In this document: positions 1,246-59,825 of the stretch, one piece after another | Layout of the letters: each line of letters starts with the position of its first letter | Numbering within the stretch: position 1 is the first letter of the stretch | NCBI GenBank assembly: GCA_964019415.1 | Contig: OZ025890.1 | Coordinates: forward strand, 693,458 to 757,457 | From: Ianthella basta | Taxonomy: Eukaryota > Porifera > Demospongiae > Verongiida > Ianthellidae | Reading direction: 5' to 3' | DNA: 64,000 nt | Translations under genes and position numbers: made by a program | Notes under the pieces: model-generated | Told to the model about the DNA's origin: nothing | The model's database searches: none | The model's input: only the letters and a program-made list of their open reading frames with translations

Positions 1246-4200
1246 GCCAGGACACTTGTGTGTTCTACAAACACACCAAATCACAGAAACCACTTCATAC
1301 TTTCCCAGCTGCTACACCTGACATTACTGTTGAACCCCTCACTGATGACCCAAGAGACAAGAACTTCCTCTGCTTTCGGCTACTCAACCATGACACTGGC
1401 TTGGAACTGGGCCGTTATCGTGCAGATGATATTGTTCAGATGCGGAAGTTCATGGCTTCACTGGGAAGGACTGGTCAGGGGCTCTTTACGAAGAAGACTG
1501 AAGAAGGTGTTGATGCGCCACCAGTGGAAGCTACACATGGCCTCTGGGATGTGATCCATCCCTCGGAAGATGAGCTCTCCCAGCGCCAACAAGTGTTTGA
1601 TAAGCAAGAGAGGATGACAGATAGTATGGCCCAGGGGCATACAGGCCCTGATGCCCTACCTTCATATGCAAATACAATCAGTCATCTAGCTATTGGTTTC
1701 TATTTTCCACAAAATGTGAAAGTGAAGCCTCCACCAGAGATGGGAGCAGTCTTGTCTTTCCCTGGCTCTGCAGTCCCACTCTACAACCCTAGTGCTGCAC
1801 TCCCCAAGTCCTACAGACGACCATACCACGACACCTTCCGTCCACCCTACGGGCCACCCGTGTTCTTCCCTGTGAGTATTGGCTATGGCAGTGAGGTGGG
1901 CCTGCAGCCAGGACAGCAGGCTCTGTGGGAACCAAACTGGAAGACCTACTTCTTTGTAGATCACATCAACCAGGTCACCTTCTACGATGATCCCCGGCCA
2001 CCAAAGGAGCTGCCCCCCATTGTGCCAAAGCAAAAATTGGCTCTGGGTGACCGTCATCGGGAGGGCAATATACCCGCTGATGTCTGCAAAAGTGTTGAAG
2101 TAGTCCATGACACTGCACAGCGTGCACTGTCCAAACCACATGGTTTTACTGTGCGTGCTCATGGAGTAAATGGACCACATGGAGCACATGGGAGTACTGG
2201 TAAAATAGGCTGTTTCGGAGCACCTGGTCACCCTGGCCTATGCTCAGGTGGCCATGGAGGAAGAGGAGGAGACGGTGGACCAGGGGGTAAGGGTGCAGAC
2301 GGTGCAAGGGGAGTGGATGCCACAGAAGCCAGCGATGTTTTGCTGAATATCTGGGGAGACGCCAATGAGCTACATGCCTCAGGGTCTTGCACTTTTACAG
2401 CTAACCTGGGAGGCACACGAGCAGAGGAAGTTGTATTTGTGAATTGCCGAGGTGGTGATGGGGGACATGGAGGGAGGGGAGGGGATGGTGGGCAAGGAGG
2501 AAGTGGAGGAATAGGGGGATCTGGAGCACAAGGCATGCATGGCATGAGCTCTGCTAGTGGCCCAGGTGGAAGTGGTGGCCCAGGAGGCAATGGAGGCAAT
2601 GGGGGCAATGGTGGACCTGGTGGACCAGGTGGGCGAGGGGGAGATGGAGGAAATGCTGGCTTTGGAGGATGTTGCATTGTCCAGTCAGTTGATCCAAAGT
2701 TGCTGATGCTAGTGGAGGCTGACTGTAGAGAAGGGATCCCTGGTACTGGAGGTGATGGCGGCAAGGGGGGTCAGGGTGGTTCTGGAGGATTAGGAGGAAT
2801 TGGGGGAGCAGGCGGTATTGGAGGAGCTGGAGGAAGTAGCACTAACTCCCAAGGCAACACCATGATCTACCCCAGTGGAGCATGTGGTTTACCAGGTAGA
2901 TGTGGTATCATTGGTTCCCCAGGCCCACGGGGTACGAATGGACCAAATGGTGAGAATGGAAGACAAGCACCCACTGGAGGCATCCTATGGGTAGTCCAAT
3001 CTGCAGAAGGCAGAGTACTGTTTCAAGCTGCCACTCGATATGATGCCCAAGTCACTGAGCTAAGTGTTGTGTCTGCCGTAGATGATGGTATCTTTGAACC
3101 CAATGAGATGATCATGGTGTCTGGAGTGCTGGCAGTGAACAGTGGTGGGCTGCCACTTCCTGCTGGATCCTCAGCTTTCATGCCATCCACCAAAACCATC
3201 AAATTCCAACCAACCACATTTGACATGCCGGAGCTGTTGCCTGGTCAATCGTTTGTTGTACCAGTGACTTACCATGGCAGGATCTTCGATCAACCCCCAC
3301 CTAATGTGCCTGGGCCATTTGTCTCCTCAGCCGAGTTTCATCCTCGTATTGAGCTCCTTGGCAGGCCCTTTGAAAAGTCCTTTCTGCACCAGAAGCTAAC
3401 AGTGCAGTACCCAGCGAAGTTGGCTTTCCTCAAATGCAATGAGAACCTGGGACGGGGAGAGGTCTCCATGTTGGAAATTGGTGTGCAGAACATCTCCAGT
3501 ATGCCCTATGGCGACTGCCCTGGCTCTGGAGGGAAGGTTGCCCTGCAAGTTCACATGGATGCCCGCATCATTCCAATTGGCTCTGCCAACATAGGCCTCA
3601 CAGCTGTGCCGTACACTGTCACGTATGACCCTGCTATCTGTGACAGCATGTACGTTCAGATGCATGCAATTGCACCAGGTGAGGTGGTAGTTGTGCAGAT
3701 AGTGGTTCAGATGGAAAGCCGAGCAGAGCTGTTTGATCGCTGCTTATGGCAGGCAGACCTCTACCTAAGGGACAAGCTGATTGAATACAACACGGAGACG
3801 ATCCGCGTGTCTCCCTTCTACACTCCTAGTGATCCTACTGCAGATGTGCTGATGGTGACCTGCAAGAGTATTACACGAAAAGAATTTGTCTTTTGGCAGC
3901 GAGTTTTGGAAGCTCTGAATGTCAAAGTGGATTTCTGGGATGTGGATCGCTACCATGGGTTGTCAACCGATAGCACCACCAATGCAAGACATCCTGTGAC
4001 ATGGCTTGGTCGATACCCTGGAAAGCTGATTCTCTACCCTTACTGCGACCTCCGTCTGATTCTAAGTGGTGACTTGGTGGCGCACTTCCACGGTTCTGAA
4101 TACGCCACTAAACAGCTGGAGGAGAAGGATTCCAGCATGGTGCTGCTTATGCATCCACATGCACCACATGCCCCTCAGGCCAGTAAGTTCTATGACAGAG

Positions 4201-5114
4201 GTGACAACAGCATCATCAAGCATCTGGCTGTTGCTCTGCCTCCTCTGGAAGTGCCAGAAAATGCATATTCTGGAATCCATCTTATGCAGCCGGGAACATG
4301 CATGACCTCCGCTGTACCATTCCTTTCATGGGAAAAGAAGTACCTAAAGAAATTGGAAGAAGAGGTCCCTTCACAGTCAGCCATTGTCATCAGCCGACAG
4401 CCTCAGATTCGTTAAGTGAGCTTTTTCCGCTATACGTATGGATCCGTTGACATCCGTCGCATTCCACTTCTCCGCTCCAGCAAGCTTCTTGTAGTGGACG
4501 GTGCAGGAGGGACAATGACCCAAATGAGCCTGGACGACATCAGCCTCTCACCAACAACCACTGAGCTGCCACTAGCTAGTCAGTTTGGTCAAGTGTTCCT
4601 CACCACACTGTATGGGCTCCCACTTGCCAAGAAGTTGGCGCTGGTGAAGACAGGGTCTGAGGAACCAAGCCAATTGCAGCTACGATTCTGCCTCCCCACT
4701 GGTGCCGCTCTAACCAAGGCAGAGCTATGCATGATATGTGCAGTAGCAGAGATTGCAGATGAGGTCCTCAACTGTACTGGAGAAGCCCTTCGCATGGGCA
4801 GGCTAGTGGAAGATGTGGTGGCCAATGTCGAGGCTTACCGAGCCAATGGGCAAGCTGTTCTTCAGTCCATGGATCTACTCAAGGAGGAGCTGAAGGCGAG
4901 GAAGAAGCGACTGAGCAACTCGCAGGTGTCCCAGGCAATGAGTGCTATCAAGGGCCAGGTTGGCCAAGTGGAACGGGCTCTGCAACAGGCAGGAGTGGAC
5001 AGCTACAACCTCGCACCTCTCCCCAGCTTCAGCATCCTGCGTGATAGCTACCGCGTGCACCACACCGCTCAGCACAAGGTCAAAGATGGACGCTGGAACC
5101 AGTTTGGGTGGTGA
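1246..5114 (+). pseudogene. PH/glycine-rich protein copy 1, exon 2, with a premature stop
   Basis: Exon 2 opens at 1,246 (after AG) with the second half of a PH domain (sequence around [12 protein letters not shown]). Three glycine-rich blocks (about 2,160-2,310, 2,450-2,660, 2,740-2,965), a beta-rich region and a putative alpha/beta domain (around 3,845-4,150) follow. An in-frame TAA at 4,413-4,415 replaces an AAA lysine codon of intact copy 3. The frame then stays open to the family's normal stop at 5,112-5,114. Translation ending at TAA would give about 1109 aa instead of 1342 and lose the C-terminal helical region. Apart from this stop the copy is very close to copy 3, so decay is recent; a truncated but functional protein cannot be excluded. 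Exon 1 lies outside the window. Confidence 0.8.
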
Positions 5115-7934
<2,820 letters not shown>

Positions 7935-8133: not shown

Positions 8134-8296
8134 TTGTAGAAAATATTTATATTTCTAGTATAATTGCGGTCTGGCTACACGGGTGCAACATCCGTCTAGC
8201 AGGATGGTGGCCATATAGGTCGGAACCCGCCAAGGAGTGTGGAACAACTTACCAGCCGAATCGATTGATTAATCAACCAGCCCTGGGAGGTGCGCG
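8134..8296 (+). promoter_or_regulatory. Promoter/5' region of copy 2
   Basis: About 160 bases almost identical to the segment directly upstream of the intact copy 3 start (35,848-36,019), so this is the proximal promoter and 5' UTR. Copy 3 has a TATA-like CCATATATAGG (about 35,932); copy 2 reads CCATATAGG (about 8,210), two bases shorter. That may weaken the core promoter. The upstream boundary is the MITE insertion. Confidence 0.55.
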
Positions 8297-11200
8297 ATGG
8301 CTGAAGCTCCGCCAGCTCCTCAATCGGTGCAGCAGCTCCCGAGCGAGCCCGCTCCCACTCTGCAAGAGGGATGTGTCCAAGGGTGCCAAGGATATTTGAA
8401 GAGGAGAACCAAGATTCTCAAACGCTGGAAGAAGCAGTGGTTTTCTATCGCTCCCGGTAAGTAAGCGGGCGGGGTAGCGAGGCAGGAATGGAACCATAGA
8501 TAGTAAAAACCATGATGGAACATTATGGAGGTGTATCTGTTGGCGCATACTCTCTGCTGCCTGAATCTGCGGGGCAATTCCAAGGCGTTAAGAGAAGAGA
8601 AATGCGCTGCCAGTGCTAGCCTGTACACTGGCATGGCTGTCTGGGTAACCGTTTAGCTCCTGGAGGAGATTTCATGTGTTGGTATTCGATTGTGTCGTTG
8701 CAGCCTGCTTCGCATATCGTGGGCTAGTGAATGAATGGCAGTGTAGAGCTACAGATATGATGCAGAATATGAGGGGAGGGGATGGCAGCCAACTGGATCA
8801 GAGCCAGTATCCTCCAGATCTATAGCTAGCTGAGGTCACTGGCCCGGCCCAGTTAGCTTCTATTTTCCCCTTCACCTAGCTTCATTATTCACCATGCATA
8901 GTCCTCTTTCTTCTTTCATTTTCATTGGCATACCAAACTGAGCTGATGACTGACACACATGACTGATACATATGCTATGTAATCTGAACCACCTCTGGAG
9001 AGCTTATTGGGTTTGGCCATAGATGCTCTAGCCCTAGTCTAGCAAGCTAGACCCCTTCCACTGGGAGGCACTTAGTTACCTTACGCAGCTAAGAGGGTCT
9101 AGACAACTTTGCACTTCCGGAACTTCCCACTATATATGCATTTTGCACTTGCATGCAATTGTTATCTAAACGGGATCCCTTTAAGGTATCTAAACTACGC
9201 AACCGTAGTTTACTTAGTTTTAATGGCGGAGCCTTGTACAGTGTGGAGCAAGGTGCTCAAAGAAGCATATCGAGTGCGAGACAGGTTTGGGAAGCCAACA
9301 CAGCTGGGGACAGTGATAGTGAAACTGCTTGACGAAGCTCTGTGCGAGAACAGCTCGCCTCAGCTTATGTGCTTGGTCTTGCATAAGAACAAGTAAAGAA
9401 CTTACTACCAGTACGCTCGGTACTCCAGCAGCCACTTTTCCAAGTCGCTCCAAGAAAAAATAGCGCAAAAAGGCAGCATCTGGAAAGTCAATGACTTTCT
9501 GTATCCAGTGGGCACACTCACGAAGACATCTCGTCCTTGGAGTGTTGCTTGCCCTGCCTGCACTTGGATTGTCTTCACACGAGCATGTCCAAATGCCTGG
9601 AGAATGTGATCAATAGCCGCTGAAATCGTCGATCGAAGGTTCTCTCTCTACCTCAGAAGCCCATGCACAGCGTGCACAGGGCCATCACACTCCCAGTATA
9701 CATAACACCTCATGATTACGACATTGAACTATGAATACTATTGCAATGTTTCCTACATGCACCCTCTTCCTTCCCCAGGTGCTATGCGCCTGGGGTGGAG
9801 AAGGTTTAGTGCGCTAGACTAGGCTAGCTCTTACTTGTCAATGAATTCTTTTGGGTGCAAGGCCACACCCACTGTGTCAGCCACCCACTTTGTCCACAGC
9901 ATTATACATGGCGGACTTAGCCAGCTGAGGGTATAGGCTGCCAAGCCTGTCAAACTGATTGGCTTTAAGAAGTGCCATTGAAACTGGAAACCACATATTA
10001 ATACTGTATACATTTCTCTTTCACATTATTATACTAATAATCTATTTTCCTTTGCGTTTACATCTGTCCCTGCAGGCCAGGACACTTGTGTGTTCTATAA
10101 ACACATCAAATCACAGAAACCACTTCATACTTTCCCAGCTGCTACACCTGGCATTACTGTTGAACCCCTCACTGATGACCCAAGAGACAAGAACTTCCTC
10201 TGCTTTCGGCTACTCAACCGTGACACTGGCTTGGAGCTGGGCCGTTATCGTGCAGATGATATTGTTCAGATGCGGAAGTTCATGGCTTCATTCGGAAGGA
10301 CTGGTCAGGGGCTCTTTACGAAGAAGACTGAAGAAGGTGTTGATGCTCCACCAGTGGAAGCTACACATGGCCTCTGGGATGTGATCCATCCCTCGGAAGA
10401 TGAGCTCTCCCAGCGCCAACAAGTGTTTGATAAGCAAGAGAGGATGACAGATAGTACGGCCCAGGGGCAGACAGGCCCTGATGCCCCACCTTCATATGCA
10501 AGTGCCAATAGTCACCTAGCTATTGGTTTCTATTTTCCACAAGATGTGGAAGTGACGCCTCCACCAGAGATGGGAGCATTTTTGTCTTTCCCTGGCTCTG
10601 CAGTCCCACTCTACAACCCTAGTGCTGCACTCCCCAAGTCCTACAGACGACCATACCACGACACCTTCCGTCCACCCTACGGGCCACCCGTGTTCTTCCC
10701 TGTGAGTATTGCCTATGGCAGTGAGGTAGGCCTGCAGCCAGGACAGCAGGCTCTGTGGGAACCAAACTGGAAGACCTACTTCTTTGTAGATCACGTGAAC
10801 CAAGTCACCTTCTACGATGATCCCCGACCACCAAAGGAGCTTCCCCCCATTGTGCCAAAGCAAGAATTTGCTCTGGGTGACCGTCATCGGGAGGGCAACG
10901 TACCCCCTGATGTCTGCAAAAGTGTTGAAGTAGTCCATGACACTGCACAGCGTGCACTGTCTAAACCACATGGTTTTACTGTGCGTGCTCATGGAGTAAA
11001 TGGACCACATGGAGCACATGGGAGTACTGGTGAAACAGGCTTTTTTGGAGCATCTGGTCACCATGGCTTTGGCTCAGGTGGCCACGGAGGAAGAGGAGGA
11101 GACGGTGGACCAGGAGGTAGGGGTACAGATGGTGCAAGGGGAGTGGATGCCACAGAAGCCAGCGATGTTTTGCTGAATATCTGGGGAGACGCCAATGAGC

Positions 11201-13944
11201 TACATGCCTCAGGGTCTTGCACTTTTACAGCTAACCTGGGAGGCACACGAGCAGAGGAAGTTGTATTTGTGAATTGCCGAGGTGGTGACGGGGGACATGG
11301 AGGGAGGGGAGGGGATGGTGGGCAAGGAGGAAGTGGAGGAAGAGGGGGATCTGGAGGGCAAGGCTCGCATGGCATGAGCTCTGCTAGTGGCCCAGGTGGA
11401 AGTGGTGGACCAGGAGGCAATGGAGGTAATGGGGGCAATGGTGGACCTGGTGGACCAGGCGGGCGAGGGGGAGATGCAGGAAATGCTGGCTTTGGAGGAT
11501 GTTGCATTGTCCAGTCAATTGATCCAAAGTTGCTGATGCTAGTGGAGGCTGACTGTAGAGAAGGGATCCCTGGTACTGCAGGTGATGGCGGCATGGGGGG
11601 TCAGGGTGGTTTTGGAGGATCAGGAGGACCTGGGGGAGCAGGTGGTCATGGAGGATCTGGAGGAAGTCGTACTGACTCCCAAGGCCACACCACCCGCTAC
11701 CCCAGTGGATCAAGTGGTCCATCAGGTAGTAGTGGTTTCATGGGTTCCCCAGGCCCACGGGGTATGAATGGACCAAATGGTGAGAATGGAAGATAAGCAC
11801 CCACTGGAGGCATCCTATGGGTAGTCCAATCTGCAGAAGGCAGAGTACTGTTTCAAGCTGCCACTCGATATGATGCCCAAGTCACTGAGCTGCGTGTCGT
11901 TTCTGCCATAGATGATGGTATCTTCGAACCCAATGAAATGATCATGGTGTCTGGAGTGCTGGCAGTGAACAGTGGTGGGCTGCCACTTCCTGCTGGATCC
12001 TCAACCTTCATGCCATCCACCAAAACCATCAAATTCCAGCCGACCACGTTTGACATGCCGGAGCTGTTGCCTGGTCAATCGTTTGTTGTACCAGTGACTT
12101 ACCACGGCAGGATCTTCGATCAACCCCCACCTAATGTGCCTGGGCCATTTGTCTCCTCAGCCGAGTTTCATCCTCGTATTGAGCTCCTTGGCAGGCCCTT
12201 TGAAAAGTCCTTTCTGCACCAGAAGCTAACAGTGCAGTACCCAGTGAAGCTGGCTTTTCTCAAATGCAATGAGAACCTGGGACGGGGAGAGGTCTCTACG
12301 TTGGAAATAGGGGTGCAGAACATCTCCAGTATGCCATATGGCGACTGCCCTGGCTCTGGAGGGAAGGTTGCCCTGCAAGTTCACATGGATGCCCGCATCA
12401 TTCCAATTGGCTCTGCCAACATAGGCCTCACAGCTGTGCCGTACACTGTCACGTATGACCCTGCTATCCGTGACAGCATGTACGTTCAGATGCATGCAAT
12501 TGCACCAGGTGAGGTGGTTGTTGTGCAGATAGCGGTTCAGATGGAAAGCCGAGCAGAGCTGTTTGATCGCTGCTTGTGGCAGGCTGACCTCTACCTAAGG
12601 GACAAGCTGATTGAATACAACACGGAGACGATCCACGTGTCTCCCTTCTACACTCCTAGTGATCCTACTGCAGACGTGCTGATGGTGACCTGCAAGAGTA
12701 TTACAAGAAAAGAATTTGTCTTTTGGCAGCGTGCTTTGGAAGCTCTGAACGTGACAGTGGATTTCTGGGATGTGGATCGCTACCATGGGTTGTCAACCGA
12801 TAGCACCACCAATGCAAGACATCCTGTGACATGGCTTGGCCGATACCCTGGAAAGCTGATTCTCTACCCTTACTGCGACCTCCGTCTGATTCTAAGTGGT
12901 GACTTGGTGGCACACTTCCACGGTTCTGAATACGCCACTGGACAGCTGGAGGAGAAGGATTCCAGCATGGTGCTGCTTATGCACCCACATGCACCACATG
13001 CCCCTCAGGCCAGTAAGTTCTATGACAGAGGTGACAACAGCATCATCAAGCATCTGGCTGTTGCTCTACCTCCTCTGGAAGTGCCAGAAAATGCATATTC
13101 TGGAATCCATCTTATGCAGCCGGGAACATGCATGACCTCCGCTGTACCATTCCTTTCATGGGAAAAGATGTACCTGAAGAAATTGGAAGAAGAGGTCCCT
13201 TCACAGTCAGCCATTGTCATCAGCCGACAGCCTCAGATTCGTTAAGTGAGCTTTTTCCGCTATACGTATGGATCCGTTGACATCCGTCGCATTCCACTTC
13301 TCCGCTCCAGCAAGCTTCTTGTAGTGGACGGTGCAGGAGGGACAATGACCCAGATGAGCCTGGATGACATCAGCCTCTCACCAACAACCACTGAGCTGCC
13401 ACTAGCTAGTCAGTTTGGTCAAGTGTTCCTCACCACACTGTATGGGCTCCCACTTGCCAAGAAGTTGGCGCTGGTGAAGACAGGGTCTGAGGAACCAAGC
13501 CAGTTGCAGCTACGATTCTGCCTCCCCACTGGTGCCGCTCTAACCAAGGCAGAGCTATGCATGATATGTGCAGTAGCAGAGATTGCAGATGAGGTCCTCA
13601 ACTGTACTGGAGAAGCCCTTCGCATGGGCAGGCTGGTGGAAGATGTGGCGGCCAATGTCGAGGCTTACCGAACCAATGGGCAAGCTGTTCTTCAGTCCAT
13701 GGATCTACTCAAGGAGGAGCTGAAGGCAAGGAAGAAGCGACTGAGCAACACACAGGTGTCCCAGGCAATGAGTGCTATCAAGGGCCAGGTTGGTCAAGTG
13801 GAACGGGCTCTGCAACAGGCAGGAGTGGACAGCTACAACCTCGCACCTCTCCCCAGCTTCAGCATCCTGCGTGATAGCTACCGCATGCACCACACAGCTC
13901 AGCACAAGGTCAAAGATGGACGCTGGAACCAGTTTGGGTGGTGA
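8297..13944 (+). pseudogene. PH/glycine-rich protein copy 2, two premature stops
   Basis: Exon 1 8,297-8,456 (160 nt, MAEAPPAPQ start) encodes the first half of the PH domain (GYLKRRTKILKRWKKQWF). The intron is 8,457-10,075 and exon 2 runs 10,076-13,944. The junction restores a Gly codon (G|GC), as in copies 3 and 4. There are two in-frame stops in exon 2. TAA at 11,794-11,796 near the end of the third glycine block is a CAA-to-TAA change relative to copy 1. TAA at 13,243-13,245 is the same AAA-to-TAA change seen in copy 1. The first stop leaves about 626 aa: the PH domain and glycine blocks only. The frame is otherwise intact to the normal TGA at 13,942-13,944. No frameshift seen. Confidence 0.85.
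9325..9640 (-). pseudogene. RecQ-like helicase fragment in intron of copy 2
   Basis: This is the best-preserved of the three fragments. The reverse strand reads AAIDHILQAFGHARVKTIQ, then GRDVFVSVPTGYRKSLTFQ, then LVVSSLLVLMQDQ. The SVPTG..KSL..Q pattern is the RecQ Walker A region, but the invariant second Gly of PTGxGKS is Arg. The additional N-terminal segment matches the helix preceding the RecQ Q motif. It is truncated at both ends and is not functional. Confidence 0.72.
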
Positions 13945-14876: not shown

Positions 14877-14883
14877 TATCTAT

Positions 14884-15632
14884 ATATATAAACCACCACC
14901 ACCACACAGTGCAAGTTACAATATTGCAGCCACCACCACCTGTGCCAGTAAAGTATCTGTGCTAGTTGGTCATAGAGAAAAAGACCACCAGTGCAAGTTA
15001 CAGTAGCCACCACCACATGTGCCAGTAGAGTATCTGCACTAGTTGGTCATAGAAAAAGACCACCAGTGCAAGTTACAGTGGCACCAGCACCATTCGCACC
15101 ACCACATGTGCCAGAAAGTAAATGCGCTCAATGGCTGAAGAGAAAGACCATCAGCGCAAGTTACAGCTGGTCAGAACCTGCACCGCCACCATTGGAGTGC
15201 ACGCTGCAGCAAGCAAATGTAAGCTTACCTAAGGGCATGCCATTGAATTGAGGGTGCGTGGGAAGAAATTCAATGGCATGCCCTTAGGCAAGTTACATTT
15301 GCTTGCTGCAGCGTGCACTCCAATGGTGGCGGTGCAGGTTCTGACCAGCTGTAACTTGCGCTGGTGGTCTTTCTCTTCAGCCATTGAGCGCATTTACTTT
15401 CTGGCACATGTGGTGGTGCGAATGGTGCTGGTGCCACTGTAACTTGCACTGGTGGTCTTTTTCTATGACCAACTAGTGCAGATACTCTACTGGCACATGT
15501 GGTGGTGGCTACTGTAACTTGCACTGGTGGTCTTTTTCTCTATGACCAACTAGCACAGATACTTTACTGGCACAGGTGGTGGTGGCTGCAATATTGTAAC
15601 TTGCACTGTGTGGTGGTGGTGGTGGTGTTTTT
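14884..15632. repeat. Palindrome 1 of the array, arms ~365 bp
   Basis: Left arm 14,884-15,249 and right arm 15,267-15,632 are inverted repeats around a 17-base spacer (15,250-15,266). The arms show a few differences, including one extra G in the left arm near the core (TAAGCTTACC against TAACTTGCC). Confidence 0.85.
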
Positions 15633-16624
15633 TCTAGAGCAATGGCACATATACTGAATGCATCCATTGTACTGGCACCATGTGGTGGTGGTGGTGGTCA
15701 TTTTCATTTAGGAATGCATGTGGTGGCCGTAATATTGTAACTTGCACTGTGTGGTGGTGGTAGTAGTAGTATATAGTAGCAGCGCCTGATGTGGTGGTCT
15801 GTTTTCTTGCAGCTCTAGCACATAATATTATACTGGTGTGCTCATTGCAACTTCCACTGTGGTGGTGGTGATGGCGGTTGTACTTATCTATGTGGTGGTG
15901 TAGTAGCTGGATATTGTGGCTGAATAGTTGTGAGCAAGTGTACATGTTGGTGCTGCTCTGCTCCAGCATAGCGGCAAATGCCTACAAATTGGTGTCAAAA
16001 TGTGATTGTTCAAAACATAGCCTCCATTTTGTGACTAATTAAGCAATACTGCTAATGACATGAGGAAATTGGTCATCTAACTTCATCCACTTAGTATCAT
16101 GACTTAGCAGGGCTGGGTCGGTAAGATATGCATTGAACCTCATTTTTTCGGCCATTTTGCCACTAATTAAGAAATCCTGCTAATGACATGAACAGTTGCA
16201 TTATCTGGCTAGGTCCATCAAGTGTCATGACTGAGCGGGCCGGGCTGGTTGAATACATCATACACATCACATATGTCGGCCATTTTGAGACTAATTAAGA
16301 AATCCCGCTAATAACATAGGAAGGTGGACCACTTGGATGTGTCCACCAAGTTTCACGTCTCAACGAGCCAAGTTGCATTCATATACAAGATACCACTATG
16401 CATCAATATAAATGCACCATACATTAAGTGTTATGCTATGCACATTTATATTAGGATTTGGCGGGCTGCTTGTAGAAGAACGAAGACCTAATTAAAAATT
16501 CTGCCTCATTTAAAAGTCTTAAAATCTCCCATACTTCAAAAGCACACCTATCACATGTTCGTGAGGGGTGCCTAACCCCCCGGGAATTATATTATATTAT
16601 ATTATATTATATTATATTATATTA

Positions 16625-19379: not shown

Positions 19380-19410
<31 letters not shown>

Positions 19411-22772: not shown

Positions 22773-22803
<31 letters not shown>

Positions 22804-27604: not shown

Positions 27605-27760
27605 TATTTACTTTAGATTAGTGGTGTATATTGTAACTTGCACTGTATTTACTTTAGATTAGTGGTGTATATTGTAACTTGCACTGTATATATTATATTA
27701 TATTATATTATATTATATTATTTACTTTAGATTAGTGGTGTATATTGTAACTTGCACTGT
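27605..27760. repeat. Tandem linker repeat closing the array
   Basis: Three near-identical copies of a ~45-base linker (TTTACTTTAGATTAGTGGTG through TTGTAACTTGCACTGTAT), the last two separated by another ATTAT run. Single copies occur at about 19,680-19,710, 22,475-22,514 and 25,956-25,998. Confidence 0.85.
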
Positions 27761-34684: not shown

Positions 34685-34718
34685 TACAGGACTTGCTGAA
34701 CCCCTTGGAAGAAAAAGT

Positions 34719-36019: not shown

Positions 36020-39000
36020 ATGGCTGAAGCTCCGCCAGCTCCTCAACCGGTGCAGCAGCTCCCGAGCGAGCCCGCTCCCACTCTGCAAGAGGGATGTGTC
36101 CAAGGGTGCCAAGGATATTTGAAGAGGAGAACCAAGATTCTCAAACGCTGGAAGAAGCAGTGGTTTTCTATCGCTCCCGGTAAGCAAGCGGGCAGGGTAG
36201 CGGGGCCGGAATGGAACATTATGGAGGTGTATCTGTTGGCGCATACTCTCTGCTGCCTGAATCTGCGGGGCAATTCCAAGGCGTATAGGGATGAGAAATG
36301 CGCTGCCAGTGCTAGCCTGCACACTGGCATGGCTGTCTAGGTGACCGTTTAGCTACTGGAGAAGATTTGATTCGGCAGAGGCTCATAGCTTTCATGTGTT
36401 GGTATTCGATTGTGTTGTTTCAGCCTGCATAATTATACATTATGGCCATGTGAATGCATGAATGGCAGTGTAGAGCTATACAAATGGTGCAGAACATGGG
36501 GGGGGGGGGGGGGGGGGGGGATGGGAGCCAACTGGATCGGAGCAAGGTCTGCTGCAGATCTAAGAGGTCACTGGCCCAGCCCAGTTAGCTTCTATTTTCC
36601 CCTTCATCTAGCTTCATTTTTCACCATGCTTAGTGCTCTTCCTTCTTTCATTTTCATTGGCACACCAAGCTGAGCTGATGACTGATACACATGACTGATA
36701 CACATGCTATGTAGTCTGAACCACCTCTGGAGAGCTTATTCGGTTTTGGCCATAGATGTTCTAGCCCTAGTCTAGCAAGCTAGACCCCGTCCACTGGGAG
36801 GCACTTAGTTACCTTACGCAGCTAAGCGGGTCTAGACAACATTGCACTTCTGAAACTATATGCATTTCATACTTGCAATTGTTATCTAAACGGGATCCCT
36901 TTAAGTTATCTAAACTACGCAACCGTTGTTTACTTAGTTTTAATGGCGGAGCCTTGTGCAGAGTGCAGCAAGGTGCTCAAGGAAGCATAAATTATCGAGT
37001 GCAAGACAGGTTTGGGAAGCCGAAACAACTGGGGACAGTGATAGTGAAACTGCTTGACAAGGCCCTGTGCGAGAACAGCTCGCCTCGGCTTATGTGCTTG
37101 GTCTTGCATAAGAGCAAGCAAAGAACTTACTACCAGTACGCTTGGTCCTCCAGCAACTGCTTTTCCAAGTCGCTCCAAGATAAAACTAGCAGAGAAAGGC
37201 AGCATCCGGAAAATCAACAACTTTCCATATCCAGTCAGTACGCTCACGAAGACATCTCGTCCTTGGAGTGTTGCTTGCCCTGCCTGCACTTGGATTGTCT
37301 TCGCACGAGCATGTCCAAATGCCTGGAGAATGTATCAATAGCTGCTGAAATCGTTAATCGAAGGTTCTCTCTCTACCTCAGAAGCCCATGCACAGCGTGC
37401 ATAGGGCCATCCCACTCCCAGTATACATAACACCTCATGATTACGACATTGAACTATGAATACTATTGCAATGTTTTCTACATGCACCCTCTTCCCTCCC
37501 CAGGTGCTATGCGCCTGGGGTGGATAAGGTTTAGTGCGCTAGACTAGGCTAGCTCTTACTTGTCAATGAATTCTTTTGGGTGCAAGGCCACACCCACTGT
37601 GTCAGCCACCCACTTTGTCAACAGCATTATACATAGCAGACTGAGCCAGCTGAGGGTATAGGCTGCGAAGCCTGTCAAACTGGTTGGCTTAAAGAAGTGC
37701 CATTGAAACTAAAAACCACATATTAATACTGTATACATTTCTCTTTCACATTATACTAATAATCTATTTTCCTTTGCGTTTGCTTCTGTCCCTGTAGGCC
37801 AGGACACTTGTGTGTTCTACAAACACACCAAATCACAGAAACCACTTCATACTTTCCCAGCTGCTACACCTGGCATTACTGTTGAACCCCTCACTGATGA
37901 CCCAAGAGACAAGAACTTTCTCTGCTTTCGGCTACTCAACCGTGACACTGGCTTGGAACTGGGCCGTTATCGTGCAGATGATATTGTTCAGATGCGAAAG
38001 TTCATGGCTTCACTGGGAAGGACTGGTCAGGGGCTCTTTACGAAGAAGACTGAAGAAGGTGTTGATGCTCCACCAGTGGAAGCTACACATGGCCTCTGGG
38101 ATGTGATCCATCCCTCGAGAGATGAGCTCTCCCAGCGCCAACAAGTGTTTGATAAGCAAGAGAGGGTGACAGATAGTACGGTCCAGGGGCAGACAGGCCC
38201 TGATGCCCTACCTTCATATGCAAATACAATCAGTCATCTAGCTATTGGCTTCTATTTTCCACAAAATGTGAAAGTGAAGCCTCCACCAGAGATGGGAGCA
38301 GTCTTGTCTTTCCCTGGCTCTGCAGTCCCACTCTACAACCCTAGTGCTGCACTCCCCAAGTCCTACAGACGACCATACCACGACACCTTCCGTCCACCCT
38401 ACGGGCCACCTGTGTTCTTCCCTGTGAGTATTGGCTATGGCAGTGAGGTGGGCCTGCAGCCAGGACAGCAGGCTCTTTGGGAACCAAACTGGAAGACCTA
38501 CTTCTTTGTAGATCACGTGAACCAAGTCACCTTCTACGATGATCCCCGGCCACCAAAGGAGCTGCCCCCCATTGTGCCAAAGCAAAAATTGGCTCTGGGT
38601 GACCATCATCGGGAGGGCAACATACCCGCTGATGTCTGCAAAAGTGTTGAAGTAGTCCATGACACTGCACAGCGTGCACTGTCCAAACCACATGGTTTTA
38701 CTGTGCATGCTCATGGAGTAAATGGACCACATGGAGCACATGGGAGTACTGGTGAAACAGGCTTTTTCGGAGCATCTGGTCACCCTGGGCTATGCTCAGG
38801 TGTCCATGGAGGAAGAGGAGGAGACGGTGGACCAGGGGGTAGGGGTACAGATGGTGCAAAGGGAGTGGATGCCACAGAAGCCAGCGATGTTTTGCTGAAT
38901 ATCTGGGGAGACGCCAATGAGCTACATGCCTCAGGGTCTTGCACTTTTACAGCTAACCTGGGAGGCACACGAGCAGAGGAAGTTGTATTTGTGAATTGCC

Positions 39001-41666
39001 GAGGTGGCGATGGGGGACATGGAGGGAGGGGAGGGGATGGTGGGCAAGGAGGAACTGGAGGAATAGGGGGATCTGGAGGGCAAGGCATGCATGGCATGAG
39101 CTCTGCTAATGGCCCAGGTGGACGTGGTGGCCCAGGAGGCAATGGAGGTAATGGGGGCAATGGTGGACCTGGTGGACCAGGCGGGCGAGGGGGAGATGGA
39201 GGAAATGCTGGCTTTGGAGGATGTTGCATTGTCCAGTCAATTGATCCAAAGTTGCTGATGCTAGTGGAGGCTGACTGTAGAGAAGGGATCCCTGGTACTG
39301 GAGGTGATGGCGGCAAGGGGGGGCAGGGTGGTTCTGGAGGATTAGGAGGAATTGGGGGAGCAGGCGGTTTTGGAGGATCTGGAGGAAGTAGCACTAACTC
39401 CCAAGGCAACACCATGATCTACCCCAGTGGAGCATGTGGTTTACCAGGTAGTAGTGGTATCATTGGTTCCCCAGGCCCACGGGGTACGAATGGACCAAAG
39501 GGCAAGAATGGACAACAAGCACCTACTGGAGGCATCCTATGGGTAGTCCAATCTGCAGAAGGCAGAGTACTGTTTCAAGCTGCCACTCGATATGATGCCC
39601 AAGTCACTGAGCTAAGTGTTGTGTCTGCCATAGATGATGGTATCTTTGAACCCAATGAAATGATCATGGTGTCTGGAGTGCTGGCAGTGAACAGTGGTGG
39701 GCTGCCACTTCCTGCTGGATCCTCAGCTTTCATGCCATCCACCAAAACCATCAAATTCCAGCCAACCACATTTGACATGCCGGAGCTTTTGCCTGGTCAA
39801 TCGTTTGTTGTACCAGTGACTTACCACGGCAGGATCTTCGATCAACCCCCACCTAATGTGCCTGGGCCATTTGTCTCCTCAGCCGAGTTTCATCCTCGTA
39901 TTGAGCTCCTTGGCAGGCCCTTTGAGAAGTCTTTTCTGCACCAGAAGCTAACAGTGCAGTACCCAGTGAAGCTGGCTTTCCTCAAATGCAATGAGAACCT
40001 GGGACGAGGAGAGGTCTCCACGTTGGAAATTGGTGTGCAGAACATCTCCAGTATGCCCTATGGCGACTGCCCCGGCTCTGGAGGGAAGGTTGCCCTGCAA
40101 GTTCACATGGATGCCCGCATCATTCCAATTGGCTCTGCCAACATAGGCCTCACAGCTGTGCCGTACACTGTCACGTACGACCCTGCTATTCGTGACAGCA
40201 TGTACGTTCAGATGCATGCGATTGCACCAGGTGAGGTGGTTGTTGTGCAGATAGTGGTTCAGATGGAAAGCCGAGCAGAGCTATTTGATCGCTGCTTGTG
40301 GCAGGCAGACCTCTACCTGCGTGATAAGCTGATTGAATACAACACGGAGACGATCCGCGTGTCTCCCTTCTACACTCCTAGTGATCCTACTGCAGACGTG
40401 CTGATGGTGACCTGCAAGAGTATTACACGAAAAGAATTTGTCTTTTGGCAGCGTGTTTTGGAAGCTCTGAATGTCAAAGTGGATTTCTGGGATGTGAATC
40501 GCTACCATGGGTTGTCAACCGATAGCACCACCAATGCAAGACATCCTGTGACATGGCTGGGGCGATACCCTGGAAAGCTGATTCTCTACCCTTACTGCGA
40601 CCTCCGTCTGATTCTAAGTGGTGACTTGGTGGCGCACTTCCACGGTTCTGAATACGCCACTGGACAGCTGGAGGAGAAGGATTCCAGCATGGTGCTGCTT
40701 ATGCACCCACATGCACCACATGCCCCTCAGGCCAGTAAGTTCTATGACAGAGGTGACAACAGCATCATCAAGCATCTGGCTGTTGCTCTGCCTCCTCTGG
40801 AAGTGCCAGAAAATGCATATTCTGGAATCCATCTTATGCAGCCGGGAACATGCATGACCTCCGCTGTACCATTCCTTTCATGGGAAAAGAAGTACCTGAA
40901 GAAATTGGAAGAAGAGGTCCCTTCACAGTCAGCCATTGTCATCAGCCGACAGCCTCAGATTCGTAAAGTGAGCTTTTTCCGCTATACGTATGGATCCGTT
41001 GACATCCGTCGCATTCCACTTCTCCGCTCCAGCAAGCTTCTTGTAGTGGACGGTGCAGGAGGAACAATGACCCAGATGAGCCTGGACGACATCAGCCTCT
41101 CACCAACAACCACTGAGCTGCCACTAGCTAGTCAGTTTGGTCAAGTGTTCCTCACCACACTGTATGGACTCCCACTTGCCAAGAAGTTGGCACTGGTGAG
41201 GACAGGGTCTGAGGAACCAAGCCAGTTGCAGCTAAGATTCTGTCTCCCCACTGGTGCCACTCTAACCAAGGCAGAGCTATGCATGATATGTGCAGTAGCA
41301 GAGATTGCAGATGAGGTCCTCAACTGTACTGGAGAAGCCCTTCGCATGGGCAGGCTGGTGGAAGATGTGGTGGCCAATGTCGAGGCTTACCGAACCAATG
41401 GGCAAGCTGTTCTTCAGTCCATGGATCTACTCAAGGAGGAACTGAAGGTGAGGAAGAAGCAACTGAGCAACTCGCAGGTGTCCCAGGCAGTGAGTGCTAT
41501 CAAGGGCCAGGTTGGTCAAGTGGAACGGGCTCTGCAACAGGCAGGAGTGGACAGCTACAACCTCGCACCTCTCCCCAGCTTCAGCATCCTACGTGATAGC
41601 TACCGCGTGCACCACACAGCTCAGCACAAGGTCAAAGATGGACGCTGGAACCAGTTTGGGTGGTGA
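36020..41666 (+). CDS. PH domain, glycine-repeat protein, copy 3 (intact, 1342 aa)
   Basis: Exons 36,020-36,179 and 37,798-41,666; the intron splits a Gly codon (G|GC) inside the PH domain. I do not recognise a named family. Visible parts: a PH-like domain (about 32-128; GYLKRRTKILKRWKKQWF to [12 protein letters not shown]); an N-terminal linker; three glycine blocks (about 358-408, 455-525, 553-630) of GGX/GXY triplets, separated by two short beta-like inserts; a beta-sandwich-like region (about 645-900, [23 protein letters not shown]); a probable Rossmann-like domain (about 918-1045, [28 protein letters not shown]); and a helical/coiled-coil tail (about 1210-1310). No signal peptide or membrane helix, so it should be cytosolic and recruited to membranes by the PH domain. 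Lys replaces the stop of copies 1 and 2 at residue 1110. Function unknown. Confidence 0.88.
37050..37357 (-). pseudogene. RecQ-like helicase fragment in intron of copy 3
   Basis: Reverse-strand frame with GRDVFVSVLTGYGKLLIF and VLVVSSLLALMQDQ, nearly identical to the copy 1 fragment and more decayed in Walker A than copy 2. It lies wholly within intron 36,180-37,797 and opposite in strand to the host gene. A long minus-strand open frame (119 codons) results from conservation among copies, not from coding function. Confidence 0.7.
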
Positions 41667-42128
41667 AAGGCAAGAGGAGTTAGGTAGGTATGTTCCTCAA
41701 TTTTCCTAGCAAGCAAATGTGTTGCAAAATGTAAAAACTACCAAATTACATGTATACATGTAGTGGTTAGCCATTGGCTATATACTGGATGGCTACTGCA
41801 TTGTGACTGTGGAAACATTTTGTTCTGCAGGTTCATTCTTGGAAGAACATAGTAGCTATGTCTAGCAATTAAGGGACAGACTGTAACTAGGATTCCTTGT
41901 ATCATGGCAACTTGTATCTTTTGCGTTATGGTAGTTCTGAAATGATATTTGTAGTGATGTGTAGGATTGCAGCTAACTGGTCAGCGTCAAATTGTATGTT
42001 TCTGTGTAGTGTCCCCCGGAAGTGGTTGTTGTAACGTTGTAACCACGCCCCCAGTGAATTAATTTTATGTATAAATAGTCGCGCGCGGCTTGTCTCTAGA
42101 GTCTTTCCGTGCACTGCAATCGAGTGCT
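41667..42128 (+). promoter_or_regulatory. Intergenic spacer and TATA promoter of copy 4
   Basis: Only 462 bases separate the stop of copy 3 from the ATG of copy 4. The first ~280 bases match the 3' flanks of the other copies. TATAAATA at 42,070-42,077 is a clear TATA box. With initiation about 30 bases downstream, the 5' UTR would be roughly 25-30 bases before the ATG at 42,129. Confidence 0.75.
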
Positions 42129-45100
42129 ATGGCTGCAGCTGGATCACCACAGACCGTGCAGCAGCGAGCGAGCGAGCCCGCTCCCATTCTGCAAGAGGGA
42201 CGTGTCCAAGGGTGCCAAGGATACCTGACGAAGAGGTCTAAGGTCTTCAAACGTTGGAAGAACGAGCCGCAGTGGTTCACAATTACTCCAGGTAAGCGCT
42301 TCTGTTGCCGCTGCAGAATATAAGATGTCATAGATTACTTCGCGCACTCATTGCAGTTTATCAAAGCATGGTATGGAAGTGAACAGTTTATATATTTGCG
42401 TGTTCGAGAGAACTCACGTTCCATGCGGTATAATTATATAAAAGTTAGTTATGAGCATCACTAGAGCTTGCTTGTGCACACAGGTACCGCTTCGGATCAG
42501 CTAATCGATCTGCCAACTGGTCCCTGCAGACTTTGAGTACATGCATACATGCTTCAATCTGTACAGGTACAGGTATTGGCAGTTATAAATTTTCTGACTA
42601 CATCTGAATACTGGTGGTCCAGTAGCAGTCTGGATGCTATGCATGGCTTGATGCACATTTTATGTAGCAGTGTACAGGTGGCACATTTCACATTACTCCC
42701 TAACTATCTGTAATAGAATTCATTATTGTCTGGTGGGAGGAATAGATTATGCATAATAATGTTGATGGTGGTCCTGTGTACGGGTGGGCTGTGGTCCTCA
42801 GTTTACACAGGCTAAAATTCCTGGAAAAGGTTCTTGATATTCATAGGGCATATTGTCTACCTGTATGGCTCCTCCAAGGCTTTATACACTCCCCCCCTGC
42901 ATGTTTAACATCCTAACTGGATTATACAAATTAGATTAGGCAGTGCTGTTGTGTTTGGAGACTGTATAGAGAAGCGATAGTTGACAAACACTGTCCTTAA
43001 GATGTTACTATCAACTGAGTTTATTGGCATCACAAGTTATATCCTGCATTAATGTTATAATCTGCATGAGCAGGTGGTTCAAGCATTTACCTTGACATAT
43101 CTCATAACAGCTAGCTATATTGTACATAGCTACCACTACCACTACCACCACAGTGCAAGGTTGTAGCAAATAATATCAATTACTATGTATCCAAAACTGT
43201 GGTAGTGCTGCCAGGAAAATGGCTCCAGAGCAAATTATTAGCTCAATGGCTGGGTGTGATGGCCAATAAGGGTGCAAGTGGATTGCTTGCGATGCCGTAT
43301 CAACTTACGCATGGGCACAACCGCCAACCTTGTCACTTCTACCCTTTCCGTTTGCAAAGCAGGAATTCTCTAAATGTAGCTGTACTGCTGTTATACTTTG
43401 CTTGCTATAGCTATGTAGTCTGGCTGCAGTGTAATATTACATTTTTGTAGCAACCTTCACTTCTAGTGGCCATGCACCAACATGAATCGAAGTACAACCA
43501 TCCAAGAGTCTGACCCATAACCATGGCAACAGCATGCATATACTGTATGAAATTATACTAATATACATGATTAGCTACAATAATAAACCTTGCACTGCTC
43601 ACTCCCATATGTGCAGGTCAGGATGGTCATGTATTCCACAAACATGGCAAGTCACAAAAGGTGGTCCGTGCTCTCCCAGCTGCTGCACCAGGTGTCACTG
43701 TTGAACCCCTAAGCAATGTCCCAGGTGATGAAAACTTTCTTGGCTTTCGTCTGGTCAGTGCACGTGGCAAAGGCAAGGAAAAGTGCCGCTTTCGTGCTGA
43801 AGATATTGTTCAAATGCGTAGGTTCATGGCTTCGCTTGGTGGTACTTGCCCAGGACTTTTCACAAAGAGGAGAACAGAAGGTGTCGATGCTCCACCAGTC
43901 GGAGCCATGGAGGCCAAGTGGACTGTGATACAGTACTCAGCAGATGAGCTCTCTCAACGCCAGAAAAAGTTCAACGAGCAAAACCAAGGGAGCGTTTCAC
44001 AGGCTTTTCCTACATACACTGCTGCAATTAGCCAACTTGCCTATGGGTTCTACTTTCCACCAGATTTGGAAGTGAAGCCTCCACCAGAGATGGGAGCATC
44101 CCTGTCATTCCCTGACTCTGCACTTACAGTGTATGACCCTAGTGTTGCCCTACCCAAGGCTGACAGACGACCCCACCACGACACCTTCCGTCCACCCTAT
44201 GGGCCACCTGTTCTCTTCCCAGTGAGCATTGGTTACGGCAGTGAGGTGGGCTTGCAGCCAGGACAGCAGGCTCTGTGGGAACCAAATTTGAAGACCTACT
44301 TCTTCGTGGATCATACAAGCCAGACCATCTTATACAAAGACATCCGACCGCCAAAGGAGATGTACCCAGTTGTGAAGAAGGTGGAAATGCCTTTGAATGT
44401 CCAAGGAAGGATAGTGGTCCCTGAAGGCTGCAAGGAACCACAGGTCATTGAGGCCTCAGCAAAGCGAGCCCTATCTAAGCCCCGTGGTTTTGTGATCAAT
44501 GCATGTGGTGTCAATGGACAAAATGGAGCACTTGGTCCAGATGGGACAGCTGGTACCAAGGGTAAAGATGGCTCTAAGGGTAACAGTTTCCTTGTAACCA
44601 CGAAGGGAGGAAAAGGAGTGCATGGCAACCCTGGTCAACCCGGTACCATTGGAGGGAGGGGAGCAGATGGCACTCCAGGTAGCGATGTGCAGATTCACCT
44701 TGATGGAGATGCAAGTGCCCTTCAGGTCACAGGAACATGCAGCTTCACTGCTCATCTTGGAGGTTCTAAGGTGGAGGAGATTTTGCTAGTGAACTGTCGT
44801 GGTGGCAATGGGGGGAATGGAGGGAGGGGAGGGGATGGTGGACAAGGTGGGAATGGAGGAAATGGTGGAGATGGAGGTGAAGGTCATAATGGTGTTGTTG
44901 ATGGTGCAAGTGGTGGTGATGGAGCTGATGGAGGGCCTGGAGGCAATGGGGGGGCAGGTGGTGCTGGAGCAAAGGGAGGAGATGGAGGACATGCTGCATT
45001 TGGTGGTAGCTGTATCATCCGTACTTATGACCCAAAGTTGCTTGTGCTTGTTGAAGCAAACTGCCTAGAAGGGACTCCAGGAAGAGGAGGTGATGGTGGG

Positions 45101-47434
45101 ATAGGTGGTCGTGGGGGTGTAGGAGGGCAAGGAGGTTATGGAGGACTTGGAGGAAGTGGGGGGCCTGGATACATTCAGACAAGAGGAGGTGAGACTGTCC
45201 ATAAAGTATCACCAGGGAGACCTGGCAGTAATGGTAGAGATGGTGCTAATGGCCGTTCTGGACAACTGGGCAAGAATGGAGATCATGGCAATGATGGCAG
45301 GCCAGCAGCCAAAGGAGGGATACAGTGGGAGGTGTACTACAATGGAAAGGTATTGTATCAAGCTCCAACAAGATTTGATGCCGAAGTTGAAAAGCTTCGT
45401 ATAGCGTCTGCCGTTGATGATGGTATCTTTGAGCCAAACGAGATGATCATGGTATCTGAAGTGTTGGTGGTGAACAGTGGTGGGCTGCCACTTCCTGCTG
45501 GATCTTCAGCCTTCATACCTTCCACCAAAACCATCAAATTCCAACCAACAAAGTATGATGTGCCTGAAATCATGCCCAAGCATGTTGTCACCATCCCAGT
45601 GACATACCATGGCAGGATCTTCGATCAACCCCCACCTAATGTGCCTGGGCCGTTTGTGTCCTCAGCCGAGTTTCATCCTCGTATTGAGCTCCTTGGCAGG
45701 CCCTTTGAAAAGTCCTTTCTGCACAAGAAGCTAACAGTGCAGTACCCAGTGAAGCTATCCCACCTCAGGTGCAATGAAAACTTGGGACAGGGGGAGATCT
45801 CCACATTAGATATTGGTGTGCAGAACATCTCCAGTATGCCCTATGGCGACTGCCCTGGCTCTGGAGGGAAAGTCACTCTGCAGGTTCACATGGATGCCCG
45901 CATCATTCCGGTTGGCTGTGTCAGCACTGATGTGAAGTCAGGATTGTACACTGTCACTTTTGATTCACAAAAGCGTGACAGCATGTACATTCAAATCCAC
46001 AAGATCCCTCCAAAGAAGACCATCAGTGTACAAATAGTGATTCAAATGGAAAGCCGAGCAGAGCTGTTTGATCACTGTCTATGGCAGGCTGACCTCTACC
46101 TGCGGGACAAGCTGATCGAGTACAACTTCAGGGATATACGCGTTGCACCAATCTACGTTCCTGACAAGGATGATGCTGATGTACTCATGATAACCAACCA
46201 AACGATTACCAGAAAGGAGTTCATCCTTTGGCAGCGCCTTCTGGAAGTTTTGAATGTAAAGGCAAATTTTTGGGATGTGGATCGCTACCATGGGCTATCA
46301 GTGGACAACAGGACTAAAGCAAGGCATCCTGCATCTTGGCTCGGCCGATATCCTGGAAAGCTGATTCTCTATCCCCACTGCGACCTCCGTCTGCTATTTG
46401 CCAGTGATCTGGTGGCACACTTCCATGGCCCTGAGTATTTCAAGGAGAAACTGGAGGAGAAGGATTCTGGCATGGTGCTCATCATGCACCCACATGCACC
46501 ACACACTCACCGCACAGACCAGTTCTATGACAGAGGTGACAACAGCGTCATCCGGCACCTGGCCATTGCAGTACCACCTCTGGAAGTTTCGGAGAAGAGC
46601 TATTCCGGATATCACTTTTCAAAGCCTAAAGTTACTCCCTACCTCACATGGGAGGCGAAGCAGATGAAGAAGATGGAGGGGGAAGTACCTTCTCAGTCAG
46701 CTGTTGTGATTGCCCGACAATCTGAGCTTCGTAGCACAGGTATCTTCCATTACTCCTACGGCACAGTGGACATCCGACGCATTCCTCTTCTCCACTCCAG
46801 CAAGCTCCTTGTGCTGGACGGTGCTGGGAGCAATTTGGCCAATTTGAGTGCAGATGATGCCAACCTCTCGCCCGATGCAACTGAGTTTGCACTGGCAAGC
46901 CACTTTGGTCAAATTTTCCTTGCCACACTGTATGCTCTGCCACTTGCTAACAAGCTTTCCCTGGTGAAGATGGGATCTGATGAGCCCATTCAGATGCAGG
47001 TCCACTTCTGCCTTCCTTCTGGCTCTATGCTGAGCAAGGCAGAGTTAAGCATGATATGCGCAGTGGCCGAGATTGCAGATGAAGTCCTCAACTGTACTGG
47101 AGAAGCCCTTCGCATGACCAGGCTGGTTCAAGATGTGATGACCAATGTGGAGGCCTACCATGCCAATGGGCAAATAGTACTACGATCCATGGGTCTTTTA
47201 AAGGCAGAGCTGAAAGTGAGAAAGAAGCAGTTGAACAACTCACAAGTGTCCCGGACAGTGAGTGCCATCAAGGATGAAGCAATCCGTTTGGAACGGGTTC
47301 TACATAAGGCAGGAATTGACTGCAGCAGTCTTCCACCACTCCCCAGCTTCAGCATCCTGCGTGATAGCTACCGCATGCACCACACCGCTCAGCACAAGGT
47401 CAAAGATGGACGCTGGAACTTGCTTGGGCAGTGA
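42129..47434 (+). CDS. PH domain, glycine-repeat protein, copy 4 (divergent, 1326 aa)
   Basis: Exons 42,129-42,291 and 43,617-47,434 with the same split Gly codon (G|GT). The architecture matches copy 3: PH-like domain (about 33-135, GYLTKRSKVFKRWKNEPQWF to DIVQMRRFMASL), three glycine blocks (about 351-620), beta-rich region, putative alpha/beta domain ([37 protein letters not shown]) and C-terminal helices ending in SFSILRDSYRMHHTAQHK. The first glycine block here is true Gly-X-Y (GQN GAL GPD GTA GTK GKD), more collagen-like than in copies 1-3. Some stretches, such as [19 protein letters not shown], are identical to copy 3 even at most synonymous sites, while neighbouring regions differ strongly. 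Intron 42,292-43,616 lacks the RecQ fragment. Likely the outgroup of the array. Confidence 0.9.

Positions 47435-48048: not shown

Positions 48049-59825
<11,777 letters not shown>

Follow-up and report, generated by a model that had tools for sequence, protein, structure and literature searches.

We analyzed a tandem gene array of Ianthella basta that lies in a 64,000-nucleotide window of contig OZ025890.1 (positions 693,458-757,457 of the forward strand). The array encodes a real, mostly uncharacterized family of multidomain proteins with known parts, namely a PH domain, DUF7932 (PF25560) and polyglycine-II-type triplets; none of the bacterial relatives read shows this combination. In the gene model, an intron-split, in-frame PH domain is followed by a region with similarity to WW domains, six strands of glycine triplets arranged in three pairs, and DUF7932, and this core has bacterial relatives with its parts in the same order. 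The most parsimonious interpretation, toward which we lean slightly, is that the product would act inside the cell as a scaffold recruited to membranes, with an old polyglycine-II core of bacterial type.

Gene structure and amino-terminal domains

A whole-genome search with copy 3 located five copies on a single contig, four in the window (copies 1 to 4) and one just upstream of it (C23:687953-691882). The same five genes and no further gene were recovered from the whole genome with the DUF7932 profile at E values up to 1. Each of the five is preceded by an upstream exon that encodes the initiating Met, a leader and the N-terminal half of the PH domain; for the three copies with exon 1 inside the window, this exon ends at GTAAG. 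Splicing, as predicted from the reading frame, the splice-site letters and the PH match, joins 36020-36179 to 37798-41666 in copy 3 and 42129-42291 to 43617-47434 in copy 4, in frame in both cases. The corresponding features are:

1246..5114, plus strand: copy 1 exon 2, with TAA at 4413-4415; its exon 1 is just outside the window, at about C23:692996-693157
8297..8456, plus strand: copy 2 exon 1, N-terminal PH half, donor GTAAGT
10076..13944, plus strand: copy 2 exon 2, with TAA at 11794-11796 and 13243-13245
36020..36179, plus strand: copy 3 exon 1, start Met and N-terminal PH half, donor GTAAGC
37798..41666, plus strand: copy 3 exon 2, intact; spliced product of 1342 amino acids
37798..38015, plus strand: copy 3 C-terminal PH half (Pfam PF00169, spliced residues 30-126)
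38427..38558, plus strand: copy 3 WW-like domain, weak, with Tyr for the second Trp
42129..42291, plus strand: copy 4 exon 1, its peptide 69% identical to the copy 3 exon 1 peptide
43617..47434, plus strand: copy 4 exon 2, intact; spliced product of 1326 amino acids, with the glycine region at about 44507-45304 and DUF7932 at about 45380-45745

An earlier sequence-only reading had described four copies encoding a protein of about 1.3 thousand residues between 1246 and 47434, positions that correspond to the copy 1 splice acceptor and the copy 4 stop. Four copies do stand there in tandem, but within the window intact genes are confined to copies 3 and 4, which are open for 1317 and 1287 codons from stop to stop; copy 1 has one in-frame TAA and copy 2 has two. 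The upstream copy, just outside the window, is also open and intact, and its one counted TAA sits 5' of its exon 2. An alternative genetic code for the TAA codons was considered and rejected, as TGA is the terminal stop of each of the five copies and, at the TAA position shared by copies 1 and 2, both copy 3 and the upstream copy read AAA.

The PF00169 profile scored 33.9 bits on spliced copy 3, above the Pfam cut-off of 25.1, and passed this cut-off only when exon 1 was joined. The PH-like domain of the sequence-only reading was thereby confirmed; the upstream exon with its half PH domain, the weak WW-like domain and the identity of residues 629-750 as DUF7932 had been overlooked. (Residues are numbered from 37713 in copy 3 and from 43571 in copy 4.) Residues ~239-282 resemble WW domains, with 38 of the 39 PDB chains listed being WW-domain proteins, at a best E value of 2.8e-4. 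A hydrophobic N-terminal segment is absent from copies 3 and 4, where the best 12-residue Kyte-Doolittle mean over the first 70 residues was 0.675 and 0.025, respectively, in agreement with the earlier statement that no secretion signal is present.

A short motif encoded 5' of the WW-like domain varies among the copies: copy 2 and the upstream copy have PPSY, copies 1 and 3 have LPSY, and copy 4 has FPTY. PPxY is the type of ligand bound by WW domains. The three variants resemble this ligand, and self-interaction with the WW-like domain would be possible.

Anatomy of the glycine module

Glycine triplets in copy 3 extend over residues 335-602, a span of 268 residues interrupted by non-glycine inserts at 387-430 and 506-524; the three blocks, two inserts and roughly 270 residues first reported were therefore accurate. 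The order is S1 (335-361), S2 (363-386), insert 1, S3 (431-463), S4 (467-505), insert 2, S5 (525-560) and S6 (573-602), giving six strands in three pairs:

38715..38870, plus strand: copy 3 S1 (9 triplets, GXY) and S2 (8 triplets, 4 of them GGX)
38871..39002, plus strand: copy 3 insert 1, 44 residues, beta-like
39003..39227, plus strand: copy 3 S3 and S4 (11 and 13 triplets, mostly GGX)
39228..39284, plus strand: copy 3 insert 2, 19 residues of LLMLV type, beta-like and recognizable in bacteria
39285..39518, plus strand: copy 3 S5 (12 triplets, mostly GGX) and S6 (10 triplets, GXY)

The longest run of glycine at every third residue was 13 triplets. The 282 residues concerned are 36.9% Gly and 5.7% Pro, and when they were shuffled 2000 times the longest such run averaged 4.1 triplets and peaked at 12. 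The strands differ in type, S3-S5 being mostly GGX, S1 and S6 GXY, and S2 mixed. GGX accounts for 9/11, 11/13 and 10/12 triplets of S3, S4 and S5 in copy 3, with 0/9 in S1 and 0/10 in S6, and copy 4 has the same pattern (9/11, 7/10 and 10/11; 0/9 and 0/10).

Bacterial relatives of the core

Residues 629-750 of copy 3 match DUF7932 at 60.4 bits (E 3.1e-16) and residues 604-725 of copy 4 at 71.3 bits, against a cut-off of 27, and both matches cover nearly the full profile. The description of the family as undescribed was thus only partly right, as this region is a named Pfam domain and the core is a bacterial family as well. DUF7932 accounts for a single domain of the core, and Pfam gives it no function.

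Among the variants tested, the DUF7932 profile slightly favors the motif DGIFEPGE. Scanning one genome per bacterial or archaeal species for this motif returned 32 stretches, with four relatives by profile: two from Bdellovibrionales/Bdellovibrionaceae and two Endozoicomonas records. Several of the non-relatives with DGIFEPGE have the look of subtilase-type proteins. In profile surveys, DUF7932 exceeded its cut-off in 20 of 240 genomes of Bdellovibrionota (the phylum of L022; seed genome included), 8 of 235 of Myxococcota (that of L021) and 4 of 199 of Planctomycetota (that of L041; profile survey only). The one positive among 369 genomes of the Endozoicomonas class was the seed Endozoicomonas genome itself. 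There was no match in 244 cyanobacteria (phylum of L019) or 199 Acidobacteria (phylum of L036), counts that do not establish absence.

A profile built from copies 3 and 4 identified a matching protein in 32 of the 35 bacterial loci read, some of them sharing a genome (L022 with L080; L081 with L092). In 10 of the 32 a single uninterrupted match covered more than 550 profile positions, from residue ~344-379 to 944-968. The order of strands, loops and inserts is common to these relatives and the Ianthella basta copies. Multiple alignment reaches into the C-terminal region, where identity falls to 11-18%, making this the weakest part of the relationship. DUF7932 was above cut-off in all eight bacterial relatives scanned, in some over part of the profile. 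None of the 32 matches extends into the PH or WW part, and Pfam found neither domain in the eight scanned. A hydrophobic segment precedes the first glycine strand in 9 of 20 testable Bdellovibrionota, 0 of 7 Myxococcota and 0 of 2 Endozoicomonas proteins; the measure is crude and starts at the first glycine run, so that nine is a lower bound (it misses a leader visible in L023).

One explanation for this distribution is that the core was gained laterally from a bacterium and then fused to PH and WW exons. The occurrence of DUF7932 in three bacterial phyla at the frequencies above, the relatives in Endozoicomonas records and the confinement of the genes to a single cluster in the Ianthella basta genome are what such a transfer might leave behind. 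However, copies 3 and 4 sit on a very long branch (3.39 changes per column) that attaches to an unresolved comb, and the tree therefore points to no donor. Fungal proteins may also carry the glycine and DGIFEPGE pattern, which would speak against such a gain. We regard lateral gain as a somewhat unlikely origin.

Searches for viral, phage and plasmid relatives found none. Three viral contigs contained the motif pattern and were rejected, as their motif frames are not relatives; another frame, in L013, matched a glycine-type stretch at E 0.0064. Within open-licence papers, a literature search found no DUF7932 and nothing apt on glycine-triplet proteins in Bdellovibrio or Myxococcus.

Selection and possible exchange between copies

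Nonsynonymous (dN) and synonymous (dS) divergence was computed by our own Nei-Gojobori count over seven regions. Copies 3 and 4 differ by a dN of 0.25 and a dS of 0.98, a ratio of 0.26 that shows purifying selection; the ratio for DUF7932 is 0.20. The four copies other than copy 4 are recent mutual duplicates (dS 0.06-0.08). The same AAA-to-TAA change is present in copy 1 (4413-4415) and copy 2 (13243-13245), while the nearest copy is otherwise the upstream copy for copy 2 and copy 3 for copy 1. A TAA shared by copies with different nearest neighbors suggests exchange between the tandem copies.

Strand lengths vary together across the family

A packed polyglycine-II bundle predicts that the lengths of S3-S5 should change together, and this was observed. 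Strands could be parsed in 29 of 32 bacterial proteins, the failures being L082, L083 and L104, frames that run off their stretch. Among the 18 proteins measured, nine had S3-S4-S5 lengths of 8-9-8 triplets; three Bdellovibrionota (L022, L023, L091) had 14-14-13, copy 3 had 11-13-12 and copy 4 had 11-12-11. The within-protein spread of S3-S5 lengths across these 18 was 0.69, compared with 1.58 when lengths were permuted between proteins, and none of 20000 permutations gave a value as low. With 17 independent contrasts on a quick tree, the correlations were 0.77 for S3-S4, 0.72 for S3-S5 and 0.68 for S4-S5 (p 0.0001-0.0008), and 0.54 for S5-S6 (p 0.0098). Several glycine-triplet strands of matched length, the mark of the fold class, are thus found in S3-S5, and the co-variation may reflect selection for matched helix lengths within one bundle.

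Several points temper this interpretation. The 18 members, copies 3 and 4 with 16 of the 29 parsed bacterial proteins, were picked by hand after the listing had been seen, and the comparison covers S3-S6. After correction for relatedness S6 follows S5 only (p 0.12 against S3 and 0.22 against S4). With a looser parse that admitted 23 of 34 proteins the correlations were weaker (rho 0.51-0.70), and once these data were reduced to their 10 distinct length triples significance was confined to one of three pairs. There are also exceptions, with S3 and S4 of 5 and 3 triplets beside an S5 of 8 in L089, and an S4 of 4 in L086.

It is improbable, in our judgment, that the glycine region is instead a disordered or low-complexity linker between folded domains. 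A linker would agree with the ~37% glycine and long simple triplets, and the glycine block has the highest dN of the seven regions (0.43), again as expected of a linker; this last value counts against the bundle too. Composition alone appears sufficient to draw matches, as the glycine-module profile matched 59 PDB sequences that seem to be linkers and collagens. A linker does not account for the co-varying lengths of S3-S5, for the order of strands, loops and inserts kept from bacteria to Ianthella basta, or for glycines that stay in register across copies 1-4 and visibly in the upstream copy.

The beta, alpha/beta and C-terminal regions

The remainder of the protein was divided as follows in copy 3:

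39597..39962, plus strand: DUF7932 (PF25560), putatively immunoglobulin-like (Ig-like) by motif
39969..40382, plus strand: second beta domain with a P-G-E / N-I-S pattern, putatively Ig-like by motif
40383..40892, plus strand: alpha/beta-patterned region with FWDV(D/N)RYHGL and GKLILYP
40893..41663, plus strand: C-terminal region, one invariant Gly among 23 members

DUF7932 and the domain that follows it contain the patterns D-G-x-x-E-P-x-E...N-x-G-x-x-x-P and G-E...N-I-S, which we take to be typical of Ig-like bacterial domains. The next region would be alpha/beta in nature, going by its pattern LLVxN..W..L..LG....WD.S.YG.LD...GKT..LN. Alignments A4, A5 and A6 each combined copies 3 and 4 with bacterial segments (23 of 25, 21 of 31 and 21 of 27, respectively).

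The sequence-only reading had proposed a Rossmann-type sensor or enzyme in the alpha/beta region. Its hydrophobic strand and helix pattern would suit an enzyme or nucleotide-binding sensor, and its dN/dS between copies 3 and 4 is the lowest of the seven regions (0.16). Its polar positions are moderately conserved (Asn and Thr 76%, Ser 72%, Asp 64%), and given the Asn, Thr and Ser a weak site is possible. Across 25 members, however, W27 and W41 alone reach 90% conservation, an observation that speaks against a conserved active site, and no charged residue is conserved at 80% or above. Profile searches against PDB sequences found no significant relative of the alpha/beta region (best E 0.89), the beta region (none) or the C-terminal region (0.18). 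The proposal is weakened by these results, and we consider an enzyme or sensor here to be rather improbable. Searches of NCBIfam and PADLOC gave no match to the protein, and those of PHROGs gave weak matches, mostly in the glycine region; the strongest (E 3.5e-5) was to a family without known function, and some others were to tail fibers.

Comparison with known glycine-rich folds

Polyglycine-II is held by main-chain hydrogen bonds (PMC8409303), and such a structure needs neither the secretory pathway nor proline hydroxylation. Known proline-poor, glycine-rich bundles of this type include Obg (six helices), the snow-flea antifreeze protein (six), acetophenone carboxylase, phage S16 gp38 and ALK/LTK (PMC8409303, PMC10235112, PMC13243192); they are described as fairly scarce among solved structures, their segments often being classed as coil or disorder (PMC13243192). 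With this precedent for intracellular glycine triplets without hydroxylation, the apparent conflict between collagen chemistry and a cytosolic protein falls away.

The N-terminal domain of Obg is comparable, being a glycine-rich bundle of six polyproline-II helices in two layers within an intracellular ribosome-binding protein (PMC8409303). Homology to Obg (GTP1_OBG) was tried and rejected: the hhalign score of 20.8 lies inside the 13.9-21.4 range of ten register-keeping shuffles, with a small Obg profile to which 5 of 12 loci passed extraction. The snow-flea or springtail antifreeze protein resembles the family in having at least six antiparallel glycine-rich polyproline-II helices of G-X1-X2 triplets, with X1 often Gly and glycines pointing inward (PMC10235112, PMC8409303). 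It differs in being small and without multidomain context, and it is absent from the 59 PDB sequences matched by the glycine-module profile; nothing seen suggests ice binding for the Ianthella basta family. Phage S16 gp38, the glycine-rich domains of ALK/LTK and PE_PGRS are likewise glycine-rich polyproline-II bundles inside larger proteins (PMC8409303, PMC13243192), but none appeared in the PDB profile search of the module. A further difference between these three and the Ianthella basta proteins lies in their neighboring domains.

A trimeric collagen-like triple helix is very improbable, for although glycine stands at every third residue, S1 and S6 are GXY and Pfam Collagen matched at 16.9 and 24.6 bits, just under its cut-off of 27.2, the core strands S3-S5 are GGX, as the sequence-only reading had recognized in setting the pattern apart from collagen, proline is scarce (5.7%), two inserts, of 44 and 19 residues, interrupt the tract, and the hydrophobic N-terminal segment is absent.

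A model for the proposed scaffold

We propose that the six strands pack as one polyglycine-II bundle in which three helix hairpins, S1/S2, S3/S4 and S5/S6, would rise from a base formed by the flanking beta segments. Three hairpins on one beta base would be the simplest topology because each strand pair begins and ends at a beta-like segment. The GGX strands S3-S5 would lie inside the bundle and the GXY strands S1, S2 and S6 outside. The bundle put forward earlier gains indirect support from the co-varying lengths of S3-S5; the inserts, then described as caps, may be better placed together at one end as the base.

More speculatively, the predicted PH domain may direct the protein to a phosphoinositide membrane and the WW-like domain may engage a proline-rich partner. 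The bundle and the two putative Ig-like domains might then form a rigid spacer or a surface for docking, while the alpha/beta region with its Trp residues might bind a ligand or partner rather than perform catalysis. Recruitment to the membrane by PH would offer a possible context for the core, to whose domain Pfam assigns no function.

Other results fit the scaffold less well. The PF00169 match of spliced copy 4 reaches 21.8 bits, below the cut-off, and no Pfam WW domain was reported in copies 2, 3 and 4, the second signature Trp being replaced by Tyr. Four short relatives of 654-709 residues (L090, L092, L093, L094) do without the alpha/beta region, and the parts of the core are therefore not inseparable. 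By eye, no common partner was seen in 11 bacterial neighborhoods, for which no family search of the neighbors was made.

A wider proposal, which we advance tentatively and with a little less than even confidence, is that these proteins form an unrecognized polyglycine-II class with a conserved six-strand plan, common to bacteria (notably Bdellovibrionota and Myxococcota) and an animal. Bacterial forms would occur with or without an N-terminal hydrophobic segment, the form described here would be a cytosolic PH/WW membrane scaffold, and helix lengths would evolve tuned to one another. If so, the family would provide a natural length series (~8, 9, 11 and 14 triplets) for the study of bundle folding. 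The co-varying lengths would be an evolutionary, structure-free sign of packing, with intact full-length genes on which to test it.

Genomic setting of the array

The window is part of a 6.0-Mb contig in a genome of 209 Mb. Matches to the fibrillar-collagen C-propeptide (COLFI) number 88 in this genome, the best at 69.6 bits, as would be expected of an animal; the many weaker ones may belong to related domains of fibrinogen type. An open frame for a hAT-type transposase, with DUF4371 and hAT dimerization domains, lies within the array at 30916-33315. Bacterial contamination is an unlikely source of the genes because of the spliced PH exon, the 6-Mb contig and the hAT transposon inside the array.

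Copies 3 and 4 stand head to tail, with about 460 bases between the stop of one and the start codon of the other (41666-42129). A 62-base piece matching eukaryotic large-subunit ribosomal RNA is located just 5' of the copy 2 start codon (8198-8259). Between copies 2 and 3, positions 14892-27650 hold a nest of direct and inverted repeats, many of 1.0-1.9 kb at more than 91% identity and including near-palindromic arrangements. Micro- and minisatellites are dense at 49536-62749, for example a 33-bp unit repeated 12.7 times with 97% match (53491-53908).

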